IMG/VR virus record: IMGVR_UViG_3300030117_001866
Location: 1-21,379 of that record
Length of the DNA stretch: 21,379 nucleotides
Source of the DNA: a virus
Reading direction: 5' to 3' (one strand)
Shown: in pieces, positions 1 through 19,178 of the stretch
Layout of the letters: every line of letters begins with the position of its first letter
Numbering within the stretch: position 1 is the stretch's first letter
The notes under the pieces: model-generated
What the model was told of the DNA's origin: nothing
What the model saw: only the letters and a program-made list of their open reading frames with translations
The model's database searches: none
Made by a program: the position numbers and the translations under genes

Positions 1-456
1 AATGTTGGTATTTATGGTCCATATTATTCTTTCTTGTCAAATGCAAGAATAACCCCTGTACCTTTCAGAAAAAATGTTCATGTCTACTCCTGTATGTGCA
101 TGCTGAACAGTTTGCCTTTCAATTGGAGAGGACCTTGGAATGAAGATGTAGATTTATGCTTACAAACTCTCGCCCATAAATACTGCACTATTGGTACTAC
201 TTTTATAACTCAAGAAAAAATGAAAACTATGTCTATGAAAGGTGGTAATAGTACTGCTTATCAAAACCTAGATATAAGAGCATTTGGTTCAAGAGCTTTA
301 CAACGCAGATGGCCTGACGTTGTAGAGCTTAAAAATAAATATGGCAGACCTCACTTTCATATAAAAAACAACTGGCGTATGTTTAAAGATATACCATTAA
401 TCAAAGACCCAAATTACAAACCAAAATCTTTTAGCATACAATTACAAGAAAAGTAA
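1..456 (+). CDS. TET-associated (GREB1-like) glycosyltransferase, 3' part only
   Basis: The reading frame is already open at base 1, so only the C-terminal 151 codons are visible; the TTG at 34 is an internal codon, not a convincing start. Visible features in order are an HVYSC strand segment, WRGPWNEDVDLCLQ (about residues 42-55), MKGGN (about 79-83), and a WPDVVELKNKYGRPHFHI tail segment (about 104-121). From memory, this order matches the TET-associated glycosyltransferase family of phages, whose C-terminal part is shared with eukaryotic GREB1. The acidic ED-D motif would be the catalytic/metal region of a GT-A fold. These enzymes are predicted or shown to add sugars to hydroxymethylated pyrimidines in phage DNA. 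The stop is one base before the terminase small-subunit ATG, so the two are probably co-transcribed. The sugar and base are unknown. The family call rests on recalled motifs, not a search. Confidence 0.72.
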   Translation, partial: NVGIYGPYYSFLSNARITPVPFRKNVHVYSCMCMLNSLPFNWRGPWNEDVDLCLQTLAHKYCTIGTTFITQEKMKTMSMKGGNSTAYQNLDIRAFGSRALQRRWPDVVELKNKYGRPHFHIKNNWRMFKDIPLIKDPNYKPKSFSIQLQEK

Positions 457-457
457 T

Positions 458-775
458 ATGAAAAGAGCTACTAAAAAAGAATTTGAGGCAAGAGTCCGTA
501 AAGTAGCAGGCTTAAAAGCACGAAATGCTAGTCGGTCGGAAATTGTGGCATATGGCACAAGGGAATGGGGGGTGAACAAAAGGCAAGTTGATGTATATTT
601 AGCAGAGGCAAACAAACTCATATCAATTGATTGGGAGATTGATAGAAGGCAATTTTCTGCAGAACTTTTATCACAATTAAGCACATTGGCTCAAGATGCT
701 CGTAGAAATGGTCAACCTCATGTAGCTTTAGGTTGCATAAATACTATGGCGAAGATCAGTGGTGTAGTTAAATGA
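458..775 (+). CDS. terS: terminase small subunit
   Basis: A 105-residue basic, helical protein. It probably recognises the phage DNA packaging site and hands DNA to the large subunit. Residues about 25-55 (SRSEIVAYGTREWGVNKRQV) look like a helix-turn-helix, with 'GVNKRQVDVYL' as the likely recognition helix. Residues 57-104 form the helical oligomerisation part. The ATG at 458 follows the upstream stop by one base, and the gene ends in an ATGA overlap with the large terminase. Size and position directly before the large subunit fit the terminase small-subunit family. Sequence identity in this family is usually low, so the assignment leans on context. Confidence 0.8.
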   Translation: MKRATKKEFEARVRKVAGLKARNASRSEIVAYGTREWGVNKRQVDVYLAEANKLISIDWEIDRRQFSAELLSQLSTLAQDARRNGQPHVALGCINTMAKISGVVK

Positions 776-2112
776 GCATACTAGATATGCAAGAAGGTGG
801 AATACTTGAAAGTGTTAGTTCGTCTAACATTGACTGCGAAGAGATATTAAGACAAATAAAAAGCGACTTACATCCCGGCCAACTTGCTTTTGTAAATGAT
901 GAAGATACTGAAATCATAGGTTTATCAGCAGGTTATGGTGCAGGTAAAACTCGTAGTCTTTGTGCTAAAGCTGTACAGTTAGCTATGAACAATCAAGGTT
1001 TCACAGGGGCAGTCATGGAACCAACTGCACCTCTTATTCGTGATATTTGGCAGAATGATTTTGAAACTTTTTTAGAAAATTATGGCATTCCATATACATT
1101 AAGGCAGTCCCCATTACCTGAATATTCTTTGCATTTGCCAGATGGGGAGGCGAAGATTTTATGTAGGTCGTTTGAGAATTGGTCAAGAATTATCGGTCTA
1201 AACTTAGCATGGGTTCTTGCAGATGAGATTGATACTGTCTCGCCAAGCATTGCAGATCGTGCTTTTCCTCGTATTCTTGCAAGACTTCGTAGTGGTAATC
1301 AAAGACAGTTTGGTGTAGCGTCTACACCTGAAGGATTTAGGTGGATGTGGAATACCTTTGGCAGTAATGAGGCTAAAACAAAAACTGATAGACGACTAAT
1401 AAAAATGAGGACTTATGATAATCCACACTTACCTGCCGATTTCATTACAAGACTTGAAGAGAACTATGAGTCTGGGTTGCTTCAAGCATATTTGAATGGC
1501 GAGTTCTGTAATATAACAACAGGGGTAGTCTATAGTCGCTTCGAAAGATCTACTCATGTCATTGAAGAAAGGCCAAATATAGAAAACGAACCACTCAGAA
1601 TCGGTATCGACTTTAATATCGGGAATACTAACGCTGTGATTGGGCTTGCTATAGGTGATTCAATGACCATTTTTGATGAAATTAATGCTAGTTATGACAC
1701 TGACACCTTGGCAAAAGAGATTAAAAGCAGATATCCGTTTAACAAAATTTATATCTACCCTGACGCTTCAGGCGGTAATAGAAGCACAAATGCTACGAAA
1801 ACCGACATCCAAATACTTGAAGGCTACGGATTTGTTAATCAATCCGCAGCTTCAAATCCACCAATAAGAGATAGAGTTAATTCTGTACAGCGATTATTTG
1901 AAGATGGAAGAGGTAACATTAGATTAAAGATTCATAGTTCTGCAAAAAAATTAATCGAGTGTCTTGAGTTACAAAGTTATACTGAAAAGGGTGACCCAGA
2001 CAAAGAAGCAGGTTATGACCATATGGTAGATGCACTTGGTTACATCTGTTGGAGGTTGTTTAATCCATTACATATGGGTGCTGGTCGTAGAACTGGTGTT
2101 AGGCTTTACTAA
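772..2112 (+). CDS. terL: terminase large subunit (ATPase-nuclease)
   Basis: This 446-residue protein is the packaging motor that pumps DNA into the procapsid and cuts the concatemer. The ATPase domain has a Walker A motif, AGYGAGKT (residues 53-60), a Walker B segment, WVLADEID, with D151/E152, and the coupling motif GVASTPEGF (181-189). The C-terminal RNase H-like nuclease has its acidic residues at D280 (IGIDFNIG), D331 (YPDAS) and D416/D420 (YDHMVDALGY). Length and motif order are normal, and all key residues are present, so it should be active. It starts within an ATGA overlap with the small subunit. The long + frame nested at 1673-1867 is a shadow. Confidence 0.97.
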   Translation: MSILDMQEGGILESVSSSNIDCEEILRQIKSDLHPGQLAFVNDEDTEIIGLSAGYGAGKTRSLCAKAVQLAMNNQGFTGAVMEPTAPLIRDIWQNDFETFLENYGIPYTLRQSPLPEYSLHLPDGEAKILCRSFENWSRIIGLNLAWVLADEIDTVSPSIADRAFPRILARLRSGNQRQFGVASTPEGFRWMWNTFGSNEAKTKTDRRLIKMRTYDNPHLPADFITRLEENYESGLLQAYLNGEFCNITTGVVYSRFERSTHVIEERPNIENEPLRIGIDFNIGNTNAVIGLAIGDSMTIFDEINASYDTDTLAKEIKSRYPFNKIYIYPDASGGNRSTNATKTDIQILEGYGFVNQSAASNPPIRDRVNSVQRLFEDGRGNIRLKIHSSAKKLIECLELQSYTEKGDPDKEAGYDHMVDALGYICWRLFNPLHMGAGRRTGVRLY

Positions 2113-11021: not shown

Positions 11022-13118
11022 GTGGCTGAAAGTATTGTTACCTTAAGAGTTGATACGAGAAAGGCAGTAAGCTCTCTTAATAATGCCTCAATAGCCAGTA
11101 AGAAATTATCAGTAGCTGCAAAAGGTACAACAGGAAGTTTACATGGTGCCTCTGCTGCTGCAACTGGTTTAGGTGCTTCATTAGCAAGTGCTTTAGGACC
11201 TATAATTGCTGTAAGTTCGGCTGTTACTTTACTTGGTAGATCATTAAGTGTATTTTCTAACAGAGAAAGAGATGCACAAATTCTTCTACAAGGTTTACAA
11301 AACTTAGGTCAAGGTCAACATACTTTAAATCAATTAACAGAGGCTGCAGATAGATTTGGTAATGCAACTTTATTTAGTCAAGATGATTTTACTAGAGGCT
11401 TTGCTCTATTAACAAGTTTTAGAAATATAGGGGTTGATGCTTACGAAAGGGTGGCTGAACAGGCAGCTAACATTGCACAAATAAATAATGTTGATGTCAG
11501 TACTTCCTTTATGCAATTAGCAAAAGCATTGGAAGACCCAGAAAGAAACTTATCAACTTTAAATCGTTCTGGTATTTCTTTTAGTAAGGAACAAACAGAG
11601 CTTATTAAGACATTGATGAAAACAAATCAAACAGCAAAAGCACATGCCTTGATTTTAGATATTGTACAAAAAGCTTATAATGATACAGCTATTGCTGCTG
11701 GTGAAGGATTTGCTGGTAATGTTGATAAGTTAGGAGAAACTTTTGACGATCTAAGTGAAAGTATAGGTAAAGGACTTTTGCCTGTATTAGACCCAGCAGT
11801 TAAAGGTTTAACAAAAATATTAGAATTTTTAAATTCTGAAGGTGGACAAGCAACAGCAATAATAGCTGGTATTGCTTTAGCTGCAAAAGGTATTTCTGTT
11901 GTAATGCCATTGGCTGTTACTGGGTTGGCTAATTTTGTTGTATCAACACAAGCTGCAGCAATATCATCTGCTTTAGCGGCAACTGGTTTAAAAGGTATGG
12001 CAGCAGCAAGTTATTTAGCTGCTGGTGGTATAACAAAAGCAACTATTGCCGTTCATGCTTTTAAAATAGCAATGGTTAAAACTGGTATTGGTGCATTAAT
12101 AGTTGGGTTGGGATTTTTAGCTGCAGCCATACTTAAAGCCAATAATGAACAAAAAGAATTTAATGAACTTTTAGAGACAGGTTCGTCTGCAGATATAACT
12201 GCACAAATAGATGCCACTAAAACAAAAATTGAAGAGTTAAATCAAGCGTTAGAAGATGCTCGTAGAATGGGTGGTCATGAAGGTAGAACAACAAGAGAAG
12301 GTTTAAAAGATGATATTGCAGAGGCAATAGAAAAAGCAGAAGAACTTGATATTGCACTTACTGAAGCAATAGAAAGAGAAAGAGTTGCAAAATTTGATAC
12401 TCAATTAAAGAATTTACAAAATATAAATGCTGAATTAGATAAAGAACTTAGATTAGGTGAAGAATTAACTGAACTTGATAGAATTAGAGCAGAAAGTGAA
12501 ATGGCAATAAATGCAATTATTGCAGAACATGGTGAGATAAAGGGTCAAGAATTAATTGACTTAGAAAAAGCTAATTTAAAACTAAAGGAACAAAAACTTA
12601 ATCAAGACCAAATTACAGAAGCAGCAAAAGAAACAAAACGTGTAATGGAACAATTAGGTGATTCTATTGCTACTGGCATATCAGATGCACTTGTTGATGT
12701 TTTAATGCATACACAGTCTATATCTCAAGCAGTTAATTCTCTTCTAAATGATATGGCAAGACAGTTTTTAAGACTTGGTATCAATACTGCTTTATTCTCA
12801 ATGTTCGGTGGAGCAGAGGGTATATTTAAAAATCTATCTACTTTTGCTGAGGGTGGCAGACCACCTGTTGGCAAAATGTCATTAGTGGGCGAAAAAGGAC
12901 CAGAATTATTTATACCAGATTCTGCTGGTACAATAATTCCAAATAATCAATTAGGTGGTGGTTCTGGATTTACAAGTAATATTATTGTTAATGTAGATGC
13001 AACTGGTTCTTCTGTTGAAGGTAATGAGGAGGAGAGTAGGAGTTTAGGGGCTGCTATTGCTACAGCAATACAAGCTGAAATCATACAACAAAAAAGACCC
13101 GGAGGTTTATTAGCATAA
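11022..13118 (+). CDS. tail tape measure protein
   Basis: A 698-residue protein that sets tail length and probably travels to the cell envelope at infection. The start is GTG 11022, without a Shine-Dalgarno sequence. The N-terminus (VDTRKAVSSLNNASIASKKL) is helical. Hydrophobic, possibly membrane-inserting stretches lie near residues 47-75, 274-320 and 351-371. A charged coiled-coil region spans about 390-545. The classic C-terminal tape-measure motif FAEGGRPPVGKMSLVGEKGP, then ELFIPDSAGTIIP, is at about 609-641. Using roughly 0.15 nm per residue, the tail would be near 100 nm. No lytic transglycosylase or peptidase domain is seen. It ends in TAATG with the gpM-like gene. Confidence 0.93.
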   Translation: MAESIVTLRVDTRKAVSSLNNASIASKKLSVAAKGTTGSLHGASAAATGLGASLASALGPIIAVSSAVTLLGRSLSVFSNRERDAQILLQGLQNLGQGQHTLNQLTEAADRFGNATLFSQDDFTRGFALLTSFRNIGVDAYERVAEQAANIAQINNVDVSTSFMQLAKALEDPERNLSTLNRSGISFSKEQTELIKTLMKTNQTAKAHALILDIVQKAYNDTAIAAGEGFAGNVDKLGETFDDLSESIGKGLLPVLDPAVKGLTKILEFLNSEGGQATAIIAGIALAAKGISVVMPLAVTGLANFVVSTQAAAISSALAATGLKGMAAASYLAAGGITKATIAVHAFKIAMVKTGIGALIVGLGFLAAAILKANNEQKEFNELLETGSSADITAQIDATKTKIEELNQALEDARRMGGHEGRTTREGLKDDIAEAIEKAEELDIALTEAIERERVAKFDTQLKNLQNINAELDKELRLGEELTELDRIRAESEMAINAIIAEHGEIKGQELIDLEKANLKLKEQKLNQDQITEAAKETKRVMEQLGDSIATGISDALVDVLMHTQSISQAVNSLLNDMARQFLRLGINTALFSMFGGAEGIFKNLSTFAEGGRPPVGKMSLVGEKGPELFIPDSAGTIIPNNQLGGGSGFTSNIIVNVDATGSSVEGNEEESRSLGAAIATAIQAEIIQQKRPGGLLA

Positions 13119-13690
13119 TGGCAACCTTTCCTTCTATAACACCAACCTATTCTGGTTTTAGTAAAAAATCAAAACCCGTAAAACGATTAATTAGATTTGC
13201 AGATGGATATGAGCAAAGAGTTTTGTTTGGGTTGGCATCACATCAAAATCCTAAAACATATTCATTCCAATTTGATGTTACAGAAACTGAGTCAGATGTA
13301 ATTGAAGCATTTTTAGATAGCAGAGCAAATGACCAAGCAAGTTTCACTTTTACACCACCGGGCGAAGGAGTTTCTAAAACTGGTACCTATGCACAGTCAT
13401 CTTCTACAACAATAACTGTTACTGTTACAAATCATGGTATTGCTATAGGCGAAACTGTAACTCTTGATTTCACCTCTGGTTCTGCTACTGATGGTAGTTT
13501 TATTGTTGCTACTGCTGCTGATCAAAATACATTTACCGTTACTGCATCATCAAGTGGTAGTAACAGTGGTAATGTAACTGTTACTGTATCTGGTGCTAAA
13601 CAATTTGTTTGTGAAAGCTGGTCAAAAGTTATTTACACTTCTAGCAGAGCAAGAATATCTACAACATTTAGGGAGGTGTTTGAACCATGA
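13118..13690 (+). CDS. minor tail protein gpM-like, with inserted beta domain
   Basis: A 190-residue protein in the lambda M position. The N-terminal part (SFQFDVTETESDVIEAFLDS, then DQASFTFTPPGEG, to about residue 84) and the C-terminal part (KQFVCESWSKVIYTSSRARI, to 190) together make the usual gpM fold of roughly 110 residues. Between them, about residues 87-157, lies an extra serine/threonine-rich beta domain: TGTYAQSSSTTITVTVTNHG, then VTLDFTSGSATDGSFIV and NTFTVTASSSGSNSGNVTV. A close relative of that domain is present in the gpJ-like protein of this window. The protein should form part of the tail tip between the tape measure and gpL. The insert probably projects outwards. Confidence 0.82.
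   Translation: MATFPSITPTYSGFSKKSKPVKRLIRFADGYEQRVLFGLASHQNPKTYSFQFDVTETESDVIEAFLDSRANDQASFTFTPPGEGVSKTGTYAQSSSTTITVTVTNHGIAIGETVTLDFTSGSATDGSFIVATAADQNTFTVTASSSGSNSGNVTVTVSGAKQFVCESWSKVIYTSSRARISTTFREVFEP
13672..13677 (+). promoter_or_regulatory. ribosome binding site of the gpL-like gene
   Basis: GGAGGT, a perfect Shine-Dalgarno core, lies inside the end of the gpM-like gene, nine bases before ATG 13687. It confirms the ATGA-overlapping start. Confidence 0.7.
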
Positions 13691-15570: not shown

Positions 15571-18500
15571 CAAAAAACCATAAAAATATTAGAGGTTTTG
15601 GTGGTCCACCTCCACCACCAGCACCAAGACAACCTACAAGAACGCCTGATACTTTACATAGTAAACAGTTTGCAACTTTTCTTGATCTAATATCAGAAGG
15701 TGAAATAGAAGGTTTTGCAACAGCATCAAAAGAAGGTAGAACACAAGGGTCAACTGCTTATAATAATGCTGCTTTTAAGGATATATTTTTAAATGATACA
15801 CCTATCTTAAAATCTTCTGCTGACTCAACAAACCCAGCAACTGCTGATTTTAATTATCAAGATATAACATTTACACCAAGATTTGGCACTGCAAACCAAA
15901 CAAAAATTGATGGTATTGAATCAAGTCAATCAACTATACCTGTTGGAGTAACAGTTACAAAAACTTCACCAGTTACAAGACAAATAACAAATACAGATGT
16001 TGATAGGATTAAAGTTTCGATTACTTTTCCACAAATACAAAAAGCTACTAATGAGGGAGATTTATTAGGTTCATCTGTACAATTTAAGATTTCTGTTCAA
16101 TATAATTCTGGTGGTTATACAGATGTGCATACTGATACTGTTACTGGACGAACTGCTGATGCCTACCAAAAAGATTTCTCAGTAAAAGTTACAGGGTCTT
16201 TTCCTGTAGATATAAGGGTTACAAGGATAACAGATGACAGTACTGATACTTCATTGATAGATAGTTTTCAATTTACAAGTTTTACTGAAATAATTGATGA
16301 CTCACAAACTTACGCAAACTCAGCATATACCTCACTAAGATTAGACTCCCAAACATTTTCATCTATACCATCAAGAAAATTTAGAATCAGAGGTATAAAA
16401 GTAAGAATACCGGGTGCTGGTGCATCAAGTTCTGGCACACCGACTGTTGATACTACAAATGGTAGAATTTCTTATCCTACTGGTTATATATTTAATGGTG
16501 TAATGGGTTCTGCTGTTTGGACTACTTGCCCTGCAATGATTTTATTAGATTTATTAACAAATACTAGATATGGGTTTGGAGATCATATAACAGATAGCAG
16601 TTTAGATTTATTTTCTTTTGTAACTGCTAGTAAGTATGCCAACACACTTGTTGATGATGGATTTGGTAGTCAAGAGGCTCGATTTAGTTGCAATGTAAAC
16701 ATACAATCTTCTAGTGAGGCATTTGACTTAATAAATGAACTAGCTGGTGTAATGAGATGCATGCCTATTTGGTCTGCTGGTAGTATTACCATTGCACAAG
16801 ACTCTCCTAAAGATGCAAGTTATCTTTTTAATCTAAGTAATATTACATCTGAAGGGTTTAGTTATTCTGGAAGTAGTTTAAAACAAAGACATACTGCTGT
16901 TGCTGTTTCATATTTTAATATGGATAGCCAAGAGGTTGATTATGAAGTTGTTGAAGATACAACAGCACAAGGTAAATTTGGAATAATTACAAAACAAGTA
17001 AAAGCATTTGGTTGCACCTCAAGAGGGCAAGCTGCAAGGTTAGGTAGAGCTATTTTGTTTGCAGAACAAAATGAATCTGAAATTGTTAGCTTTGCAACTT
17101 CAATAGATGCTGGTGCTATTGTCAGACCGGGTGCAATTATTGAAATTAATGACCCAGTACGAGCAGGGGTTAGAAGAGGTGGAAGATTATCTGCTGTTGC
17201 TTCAACTACCCAAATGACTGTTGATAATGTTAATGATACTGATTTGCCTACAACAAATAGCCCTACTTTTAGTGTTGTCTTACCAGATGGCACAGTGGAA
17301 ACAAAAGATGTTTCTAGTATTTCAAATGGAGTGGTGACAGTTAGTTCAGCTTTTTCTCAAACACCAAATGTAAATACTGTATGGTTATTACAAAATACAA
17401 CAGTTCAAGCAGAAAAATTCAGAGTTATAACCATTGAGGAAGTAGATCCTATTAGTTATGCAATAACTGCACTTTCATATAAATCTGGTAAATATGATTT
17501 TATTGAGGATGGCACAAGTTTACCAGCACGAAGTGTATCTGTTTTAAATGAACTTAAACCACCTCCATCAAACTTATCTGCTGTTGAAACTATTGTTCCA
17601 ATTAACAATCAAGCAGTTTCTAAAATTTTTATAAGTTGGCAACCGATTGTTGGTGTTATTGAATATCAGGTTAATTATCGTTTTGCTAATGGTAATTTTG
17701 TAAGTGAAAGAGTATCAAGACCAGATTTTCAAATAGTTAATAGTCAATTAGGTGTATATGAAATACAAGTTTTTAGTTATAACGTACAAGGCCAACTTTC
17801 TGCTACATCAAATGATTTAACATTTACTGCTGTAGGTAAAACTGCATTGCCACAAGATGTTTCAAACTTAACTGTTGAACCTGTTTCTAATCAATTTGTA
17901 AGATTACGTTTTAATAAAGCAACAGATGTAGATGTTACGCATGGTGGAAATATTGTGGTTAGGCATAGCAATATAACAGATGGAACTGGTACTTTTACAA
18001 ATTCAGTAGATATTATTCCAGCTTTGCCGGGCAATGTTTCTGAAACCCTTGTACCAGCACTAACAGGTGAGTATATTTTAAAATTTAGGGATGATGGTGG
18101 TCGTTTAAGTTCTGGTGAAACTTCTGTTGTTGTAACAGTACCAGACCCTGTACCACAACTTACTTTATTAACAGATAGAGAAGATACAGATGCAACACCT
18201 TTTAATGGAGCAAAAACAAACACTTTTTATAGTGCTGGTTTAGTAGGTCTTGTTTTAGATTCTTCAGTAAATATTGATGACGTTACTGCAAATATTGATA
18301 CACTAGGTTCTATTGATTTTCTTGGTGATATTGCATCTTCTGGTAAATATGATTTTGTTAGCACTATTGATTTTGGTGGCAAACAACCTGTTAATTTAAC
18401 TCGCCATATGGTTACAGAATCATTTTATCCTAATGATTTAATTGACCAAAGAACTGCTTTAATTGATGTTTGGACAGATATAGATGCCCAAACAGCATTT

Positions 18501-19178
18501 GATACTAATGCTCGTTTGTTAGTTGCTCAAACTGATTTAGACCCTGACTTATCGGTTTCAGCTACTTATGCACAATCTGGGACTACAATTACTGTTACAA
18601 AATCAAATCATGGGTATGTTGCTGGAAATGTTATTGTTGTCGATTTCACAAGCGGTACGGGTATTGATGGTGAATATGTAATCCAAAGTACCGGAAGCGT
18701 AAATGATTTTGTATTAACAGGAACTACAAGTCAAACAACAAGTGGTAATTGTACATATGGTGCGAATTTTACAGCTTTTGAACCAATGGCAAATGGTACT
18801 TTTATTGCTAGAGGTTTTAAGTTTAGAGCAGAATTAACAAGTGAAGATACAGCACAAAGTATTCTTATTAAACAATTAGGTTATAGTGCATCTTTAACAA
18901 GTCGCACTGAATCGCCAAGTAGTGTTATTGCTTCTGGTACCTCACGAAAGTCTGTGTCATTTACAAATACTTTTTTTACAGGCACTTCAGAGCTTGGTGG
19001 CTCTACAACAGCACATCTACCAACAATAGGAATTATTGTAGAAAATATGGAAAGTGGCGATTTCTTTAGTTTGCATAATATTACTGGTAGTGGTTTCGAT
19101 ATTGACATTAAAAATGGTTCAAGTTTTGTTAATAGGAATTTTAGATATACTGCTGTTGGTTTTGGTCGAGGCTCTTAA
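15567..19178 (+). CDS. central tail fibre / host specificity protein gpJ-like
   Basis: This 1203-residue protein forms the tail tip and likely contacts the host receptor. After a polyproline leader (GPPPPPAPRQP), the gpJ core starts with LDLISEGEIEGFATASKEG and FKDIFLNDTPILK. It continues with the structural domains up to about 660, including DLLTNTRYGFGDHI near 320-335 and RPGAIIEINDPVRAGVRRGG near 515-535. Two fibronectin type III-like domains follow (about 665-758 and 759-865). A beta domain at about 999-1068 (ATYAQSGTTITVTKSNHG, then VVDFTSGTGIDGEYVI) closely resembles the insert of the gpM-like protein. The C-terminal 130 residues are probably the receptor-facing part. It is the last gene of the M-L-K-I-J block. 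Confidence 0.93.
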   Translation: MTKNHKNIRGFGGPPPPPAPRQPTRTPDTLHSKQFATFLDLISEGEIEGFATASKEGRTQGSTAYNNAAFKDIFLNDTPILKSSADSTNPATADFNYQDITFTPRFGTANQTKIDGIESSQSTIPVGVTVTKTSPVTRQITNTDVDRIKVSITFPQIQKATNEGDLLGSSVQFKISVQYNSGGYTDVHTDTVTGRTADAYQKDFSVKVTGSFPVDIRVTRITDDSTDTSLIDSFQFTSFTEIIDDSQTYANSAYTSLRLDSQTFSSIPSRKFRIRGIKVRIPGAGASSSGTPTVDTTNGRISYPTGYIFNGVMGSAVWTTCPAMILLDLLTNTRYGFGDHITDSSLDLFSFVTASKYANTLVDDGFGSQEARFSCNVNIQSSSEAFDLINELAGVMRCMPIWSAGSITIAQDSPKDASYLFNLSNITSEGFSYSGSSLKQRHTAVAVSYFNMDSQEVDYEVVEDTTAQGKFGIITKQVKAFGCTSRGQAARLGRAILFAEQNESEIVSFATSIDAGAIVRPGAIIEINDPVRAGVRRGGRLSAVASTTQMTVDNVNDTDLPTTNSPTFSVVLPDGTVETKDVSSISNGVVTVSSAFSQTPNVNTVWLLQNTTVQAEKFRVITIEEVDPISYAITALSYKSGKYDFIEDGTSLPARSVSVLNELKPPPSNLSAVETIVPINNQAVSKIFISWQPIVGVIEYQVNYRFANGNFVSERVSRPDFQIVNSQLGVYEIQVFSYNVQGQLSATSNDLTFTAVGKTALPQDVSNLTVEPVSNQFVRLRFNKATDVDVTHGGNIVVRHSNITDGTGTFTNSVDIIPALPGNVSETLVPALTGEYILKFRDDGGRLSSGETSVVVTVPDPVPQLTLLTDREDTDATPFNGAKTNTFYSAGLVGLVLDSSVNIDDVTANIDTLGSIDFLGDIASSGKYDFVSTIDFGGKQPVNLTRHMVTESFYPNDLIDQRTALIDVWTDIDAQTAFDTNARLLVAQTDLDPDLSVSATYAQSGTTITVTKSNHGYVAGNVIVVDFTSGTGIDGEYVIQSTGSVNDFVLTGTTSQTTSGNCTYGANFTAFEPMANGTFIARGFKFRAELTSEDTAQSILIKQLGYSASLTSRTESPSSVIASGTSRKSVSFTNTFFTGTSELGGSTTAHLPTIGIIVENMESGDFFSLHNITGSGFDIDIKNGSSFVNRNFRYTAVGFGRGS

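Follow-up and report, generated by a model that had tools for sequence, protein, structure and literature searches.

The stretch of DNA analyzed here (the window; 21,379 bases, the entire virus record) opens at its 5' edge inside a gene. We consider it rather likely that this gene closes a DNA-modification cassette that is exchanged horizontally and lies 5' of the terminase genes of a cyanosiphophage-like virus, and that the cassette carries out DNA glycosylation without a TET enzyme. The gene encodes a TET-associated glycosyltransferase (TAGT, PF20691), and its C-terminal 151 amino acids occupy positions 1-456 on the plus strand. About 20 kb of the virus's own genome is missing from the window, and the genes 5' of the TAGT were read outside it, in near-identical relatives (e.g., L002, L009, and L011). 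A further point of reference is G006, a relative of 41,346 bases. Its ends share 99 bases, 99% identical, within the head-morphogenesis gene, so that G006 is effectively complete. Its 25 non-structural genes yielded only GalE, RusA, ERF, AAA, DUF932, DUF6450, ParB_N, radical SAM/SPASM, TAGT, and a "cyanophage outer membrane protein like" domain. The large terminase subunit (TerL) of the window is 67-70% identical to those of the Prochlorococcus and Synechococcus siphophages MED4-184, MED4-117, KBS-S-2A, and S-H1. Judging from this likeness and from the outer-membrane-like domain of G006, the host of this marine virus is probably a picocyanobacterium. A similar module, TYAQS..TTITVT...NHG...GxxVxxDFTSG...DG....., recurs in two of the window's tail proteins (13118-13690 and about 18400-18700) and is apparently a swapped or duplicated domain.

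The frame at 1-456 is open at its 5' end and closes with TAA at 454-456. Direct reading confirmed that it contains the motifs NEDVDLCLQ, MKGGN, and WPDVVELKNKYGR named in the earlier note, and that its stop lies one base before the ATG of the small terminase subunit (TerS). The same note had assigned the gene to the TAGT family and proposed a profile search of the full gene as the check. The window fragment scores 37.8 bits against PF20691 (curated cut-off 27.5), and the full-length, 274-residue copies in relatives score 104.4 bits, so that the assignment stands. Because the protein has 274 residues in near-identical relatives, the window holds residues 124-274. The fragment also matches PHROG 842 ("beta-glucosyl-HMC-alpha-glucosyltransferase") at 2e-12. 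In a scan of viral contigs, 51 TAGT relatives were found, 13 of which are 93-99% identical over the 151-residue fragment; near-identical copies (97-99%) come from independent marine contigs. Against the closer relatives dN/dS is 0.012-0.063, indicating strong purifying selection. Near-identical copies together with low dN/dS mark the TAGT as a real, selected gene, conserved and intact over the part present.

Across 29 aligned TAGTs, D89, D90, N170, D172, G204, and G205 are invariant. On the plus strand of the window, N170 and D172 belong to the NED motif (139-147; fragment residues 47-49), which is the conserved N-E/D-D of the GT-A family and likely forms the catalytic base/acceptor side, and G204 and G205 belong to MKGGN (235-249); the WPDVVELKNKYGR stretch lies at 310-348. 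A single GT-A domain is predicted for the protein (AlphaFold pLDDT 87.7), and the neighbors of the model in the PDB include heparosan synthase 2 and UDP-Gal-bound COLGALT1. The model and the 29 sequences together show the DD(N) and N-E-D motifs with the GT-A fold, as expected of a PF20691 member.

The TAGT was described in the earlier note as fused into the packaging operon; it is instead a separate gene, one base 5' of TerS (stop at 456, ATG at 458) and tightly packed with the genes that precede it. TerS (458-775, plus strand, 105 residues) matches phrog_34910 and is 49% identical to the MED4-184 protein directly 5' of TerL. It overlaps TerL (772-2112, plus strand, 446 residues; Terminase_6N/6C) by four bases. 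The further proposal, that modification genes lie just beyond the window edge, was borne out in the near-identical relatives, where the full operon reads ParB_N(x2)-CTD, radical SAM/SPASM, TAGT, TerS, TerL. There the ParB_N(x2)-CTD protein has 344-380 residues, the radical SAM/SPASM enzyme about 321, and the TAGT 274, with 8-base overlaps at both the ParB/radical SAM and the radical SAM/TAGT junctions. The radical SAM gene lies directly 5' of the TAGT in every relative of the window clade with enough flanking sequence. Its product exceeds the cut-offs of PF04055 and PF13186, has CNMACPFC as its CxxxCxxC motif, and keeps the C-terminal SPASM cysteines at fixed positions across clade members. 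By sequence, its closest solved relative is BtrN (E 4e-17), an enzyme that oxidizes a sugar-like cyclitol. The ParB protein matches PF02195 (ParB_N) in two stretches at 68 bits, with ParB, Noc, and KorB as fold neighbors, and the 15 Pfam families of the G006 non-structural genes include no ParA partner ATPase.

Of the contextual evidence, what argues most strongly for DNA as the target of the TAGT cassette is the presence of DNA-modifying enzymes in the same position. The 80 TerL relatives that we compared, together with isolates, differ in the genes immediately preceding TerS or TerL. In the window clade, this slot holds ParB-CTD, radical SAM, and TAGT. In a sister clade (L101, L105-L108, L111, and others), it holds a UDP-xylose synthase (matching human UXS1 at E 1e-122), ParB_N(x2)-CTD, and TAGT. 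L116 has a ParB-like protein and a different TAGT (108.8 bits), and in L117 and L119 an N6_N4 DNA methyltransferase is joined to a ParB-like domain; for the L116 and L117 proteins the kinship to ParB rests on phmmer, without a Pfam match. In still other relatives a DNA polymerase sliding clamp takes this place, and in some of them a DNA methyltransferase separates TerS from TerL. DNA-modification cassettes are swapped at this site. Whether the radical-SAM and UDP-xylose synthase clades gained their TAGTs separately is not claimed here: the tree splits them, but the AU test does not reject a single clade (p 0.136).

A third type of slot is found in MED4-184, MED4-117, and L127, which carry ParB_N, an FkbM methyltransferase, and a TET/JBP-like dioxygenase. 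MED4-184 and MED4-117 belong to the same phage family as the window (TerL 67%), with the cassette in the same position ahead of TerS and TerL and ParB_N likewise first. However, the dioxygenase and FkbM replace the radical SAM enzyme and TAGT, and their ParB has neither the CTD nor the second ParB_N domain of the window clade. We call the slot gene only TET/JBP-like because its scores of 26.8-30.7 bits fall below the Pfam cut-off for Tet_JBP (34.9). The label "queuine tRNA-ribosyltransferase" given to it in MED4-184 (L093:7896-8681) and MED4-117 (L097:4896-5681) was rejected; the sole Pfam match is Tet_JBP, at a sub-cut-off 26.8 bits. In these two phages the gene probably encodes a TET/JBP-like dioxygenase whose target is thymine or methylcytosine of the host. 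No C5-methylase was found in the MED4-184 genome, and since the TET-like gene occurs there without one, the substrates of the slot would appear to be unusual.

Proximity of a TAGT to a terminase recurs with unrelated terminases: in nine further loci picked by eye, Terminase_6, Terminase_3, or a TerL_ATPase/nuclease lies within a few genes of the TAGT. From the adjacency of TAGT and TerS, the earlier note had suggested modification late in infection or a link between modified DNA and packaging. The adjacency holds, but the link between modification and packaging read from it is weaker than it looks, and position by itself tells little about timing, because exchange at the site 5' of TerS is general: it also receives methyltransferases, TET-like genes, and the sliding clamp. 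A specific packaging mechanism is likewise disfavored, as the slot exchanges many types of cargo.

The constant partner of the TAGT is the CTD, the C-terminal stretch of about 75 residues in the ParB protein (W..MPEF/Y ... F..ED...F ... KT..IW.P), for which there is no Pfam family. Using a profile built from the viral loci themselves, we found the CTD adjacent to, one gene away from, or fused to the TAGT in 50 of the 54 viral loci with enough flank, a count made without dereplication. Of the four misses, three belong to the type of TAGT that retains an N-terminal W..MPEF remnant (seen in L043 and L050). In an independent set of bacterial genomes, the CTD was present at 43 of 48 TAGT loci, including 8 fusions, and among the five misses are two loci without upstream DNA and one with only 251 bases of it. 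It was also present, in some cases weakly, at all eight isolate loci. TAGTs themselves are rare in bacterial genomes within the reach of our search, which finds only sequences matching two peptide patterns (48 loci in 84,980 species). A tblastn search with one CTD against 50,697 phage records returned only three matches, all in Aeromonas phages and all in the TAGT gene, and the TAGT-less slots of the TerL relatives contain no CTD.

The CTD occurs in several architectures: ParB_N-CTD, CTD alone (80-90 residues), CTD-TAGT, and CTD-TAGT followed by a uracil-DNA-glycosylase-like domain. The last is a single 547-residue frame (L041:7622-9265), and its third domain belongs to the uracil-DNA-glycosylase superfamily. 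Isolates with CTD-TAGT genes include Vibrio phages 1.076.O and 1.124.O. The CTD-TAGT fusions indicate that the two work together and, given its ParB_N context, we infer that the CTD delivers the enzyme to DNA; the structure model of the ParB-CTD protein is weak in the CTD part. Some other features of TAGT loci were also recorded. Immediately 3' of their CTD-TAGT fusion, phiAS5 (L095:5110-5310), Aeh1 (L237:4492-4692), and POP12 (L238:4450-4629) have a second small CTD-like gene (59-66 residues). Directly 3' of the TAGT in two otherwise different phages is a gene with a CxxxCYA-type cysteine motif (L020:1121-1930 and L045:3021-3491; 59% identical where aligned), the L020 copy of which has no Pfam or PHROG match at E 1e-4. 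At L018:7670-8505 the TAGT is split over two frames, which is probably a frameshift from metagenome assembly or a decaying copy.

The TAGT also co-occurs with enzymes that could supply its sugar. A nucleotide-sugar epimerase-type SDR (PF01370) was found in 9 of 10 TAGT-bearing records of the phage family and in 0 of 15 TAGT-lacking records (Fisher p 5e-6, which is optimistic since the genomes are related and some are fragmentary). In the window clade the SDR is GalE, a UDP-glucose 4-epimerase (E 2e-87 to E. coli GalE) encoded near RusA, and the cassette is possibly galactosylating. In the sister clade it is the UDP-xylose synthase inside the slot, and in L048 a UDP-glucose dehydrogenase and another SDR follow the TAGT and CTD. 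This variety suggests that different cassettes attach different sugars. TAGT genes also stand as tandem pairs in L023, L039, and Vibrio phage Kuja (L236), an arrangement that suggests successive sugar additions.

The earlier note had also expected a TET/JBP dioxygenase, a thymidylate synthase (TS)-like gene, or another base-hydroxymethylating enzyme near the TAGT, and this was not found. TET/JBP was absent from all 50 TAGT records searched, C5-methylase and TS families were absent from 22, and the non-structural genes of the complete G006 include no known base hydroxylase. The profiles PF00303, PF00145, and PF12851 had no match in G006, G008, or further TAGT relatives searched. As a positive control, the TET search detected the MED4-184, MED4-117, and L127 genes, while all TAGT-bearing members were silent. 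Among 140 neighbors of diverse TAGTs, neither Tet_JBP nor TS appears in the best 25 of 64 families. Thus, in TAGT relatives, we see neither a TS-family hydroxymethylase nor the combination of a C5-methylase with TET that would make hydroxymethylpyrimidines. With no TET/JBP in TAGT-bearing relatives, the name "TET-associated" does not fit the TAGT group of the window, and the absence of a known maker of hydroxylated pyrimidines from G006 and other TAGT-bearing relatives searched counts against the reading preferred below, since it leaves the acceptor unexplained.

In our preferred reading, the cassette most likely decorates viral DNA. The ParB-CTD protein would bring the TAGT to phage DNA, where the GT-A-fold enzyme would move a sugar from a UDP-sugar onto a hydroxylated base. 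The donor may be UDP-galactose or UDP-glucose in the window clade, and in the sister clade UDP-xylose. Preparing the acceptor or oxidizing the attached sugar would fall to the BtrN-like radical SAM enzyme, and DNA modified in this way would be protected from host nucleases ahead of packaging. More tentatively, we propose a TET-independent system in its own right, in which ParB_N-CTD delivers the GT-A enzyme, the radical SAM enzyme makes the acceptor or remodels the sugar, and the result is an undescribed base whose glycans (galactose-, xylose-, or related) depend on the nucleotide-sugar enzyme that the phage encodes.

Several known systems help to place this cassette. Phage RB69 brings its own sugar-supply genes along with a glycosyltransferase. 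The phages of the window group similarly combine a phage-borne sugar-supply gene with a glycosyltransferase, but use GalE or UDP-xylose synthase and have no TS-family synthase of hydroxylated dCMP. Arabinosylation in RB69 is an example of such a phage pathway of nucleotide-sugar supply and DNA glycosyltransfer (PMC6024577). Closer by family is T6 ggt, which, according to passages of PMC13216743, is a PF20691 member that adds a second glucose to glucosyl-hmC in DNA. It shares with the window TAGT the Pfam family (PMC13216743, same passages), the predicted GT-A fold, and the role of a sugar transferase tied to DNA modification. However, T6 ggt adjoins a dCMP hydroxymethylase, and the phage group of the window has neither this enzyme nor the second-glucose step; against a profile of window-type TAGTs, ggt scores 12.4 bits, a distant similarity. 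In Aeromonas phages Aeh1 and phiAS5, Pectobacterium phage POP12, and Tenacibaculum phage PTm1, the TAGT and the CTD of about 75 residues form one polypeptide, whereas the window clade carries the CTD on the ParB_N protein, with the radical SAM gene between CTD and TAGT. Passages of PMC13216743 also report solitary TAGTs without an assigned function in 288 of 753 phage genomes. Like that of the window, these have no alpha- or beta-glucosyltransferase alongside, and the same passages describe no ParB_N-CTD, radical SAM, or nucleotide-sugar partners for them (PMC13216743).

Alternative explanations differ in how well they fit these observations. The one that survives best, a possible though not favored reading, keeps DNA as the target but has the acceptor hydroxyl come from elsewhere than the phage: it would be host-supplied, or an unmodified base or the backbone would be used, with the radical SAM enzyme only tailoring the sugar. 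This is a sub-version of our preferred reading, and the likelihoods of the two overlap. It fits the lack of a known hydroxylase in the complete G006, the similarity of the radical SAM enzyme to BtrN, and the TET-like gene of MED4-184 that has no C5-methylase beside it. However, no TAGT that uses an unmodified base is known to us, and cassettes of the UDP-xylose synthase type, which have no radical SAM gene, would need another acceptor source too.

It is unlikely that the target of the TAGT is instead a protein of the virion (capsid, tail, or terminase), as for some mycobacteriophage glycosyltransferases, with the place of the gene beside the structural operon reflecting that role. The gene does adjoin packaging and head genes, an enzyme for base hydroxylation was not found, and glycosylation of virions by phages has been published, to go by a title cited in PMC12619734. 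But the slot is filled by DNA methyltransferases or a TET-like gene in sister phages, the partner belongs to the ParB-type proteins that accompany DNA methyltransferases, a uracil-DNA-glycosylase-like domain is attached to one TAGT, and the characterized PF20691 member acts on DNA (passages of PMC13216743).

We regard as very improbable a TET/JBP or TS-like hydroxymethylase close beyond the window edge, with hmC or hmU as the base that the TAGT glycosylates. The family name and the TET-like genes in the MED4-184 and MED4-117 slot speak for it, but for the relatives it is contradicted by the lack of TET, C5-methylase, and TS matches (the complete G006 included), by the radical SAM gene that takes the place directly 5' of the TAGT, and by the best 25 families among TAGT neighbors. 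Equally improbable is an auxiliary metabolic or surface-polysaccharide module in which GalE, UDP-xylose synthase, and TAGT change host surface sugars and so exclude other phages: these two nucleotide-sugar enzymes are bacterial surface-sugar enzymes and polysaccharides are commonly built by GT-A GT2-like enzymes, but the TAGT is modeled as one GT-A domain only, TAGTs are rare in the bacterial genomes covered by the two-pattern search, and the ParB_N-CTD partners and the slot shared with DNA modifiers point to DNA.

Taken as a DNA-glycosylation cassette, the genes at the edge of the window raise the question of how such a system works without any known base hydroxylase. They also provide testable partners for solitary TAGTs, namely the CTD, which accompanies nearly all of the TAGTs examined, the ParB_N proteins, and nucleotide-sugar enzymes that predict the sugar. 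At a single position 5' of the terminase, related phages exchange methyltransferases, TET-like dioxygenases, and glycosylation modules.
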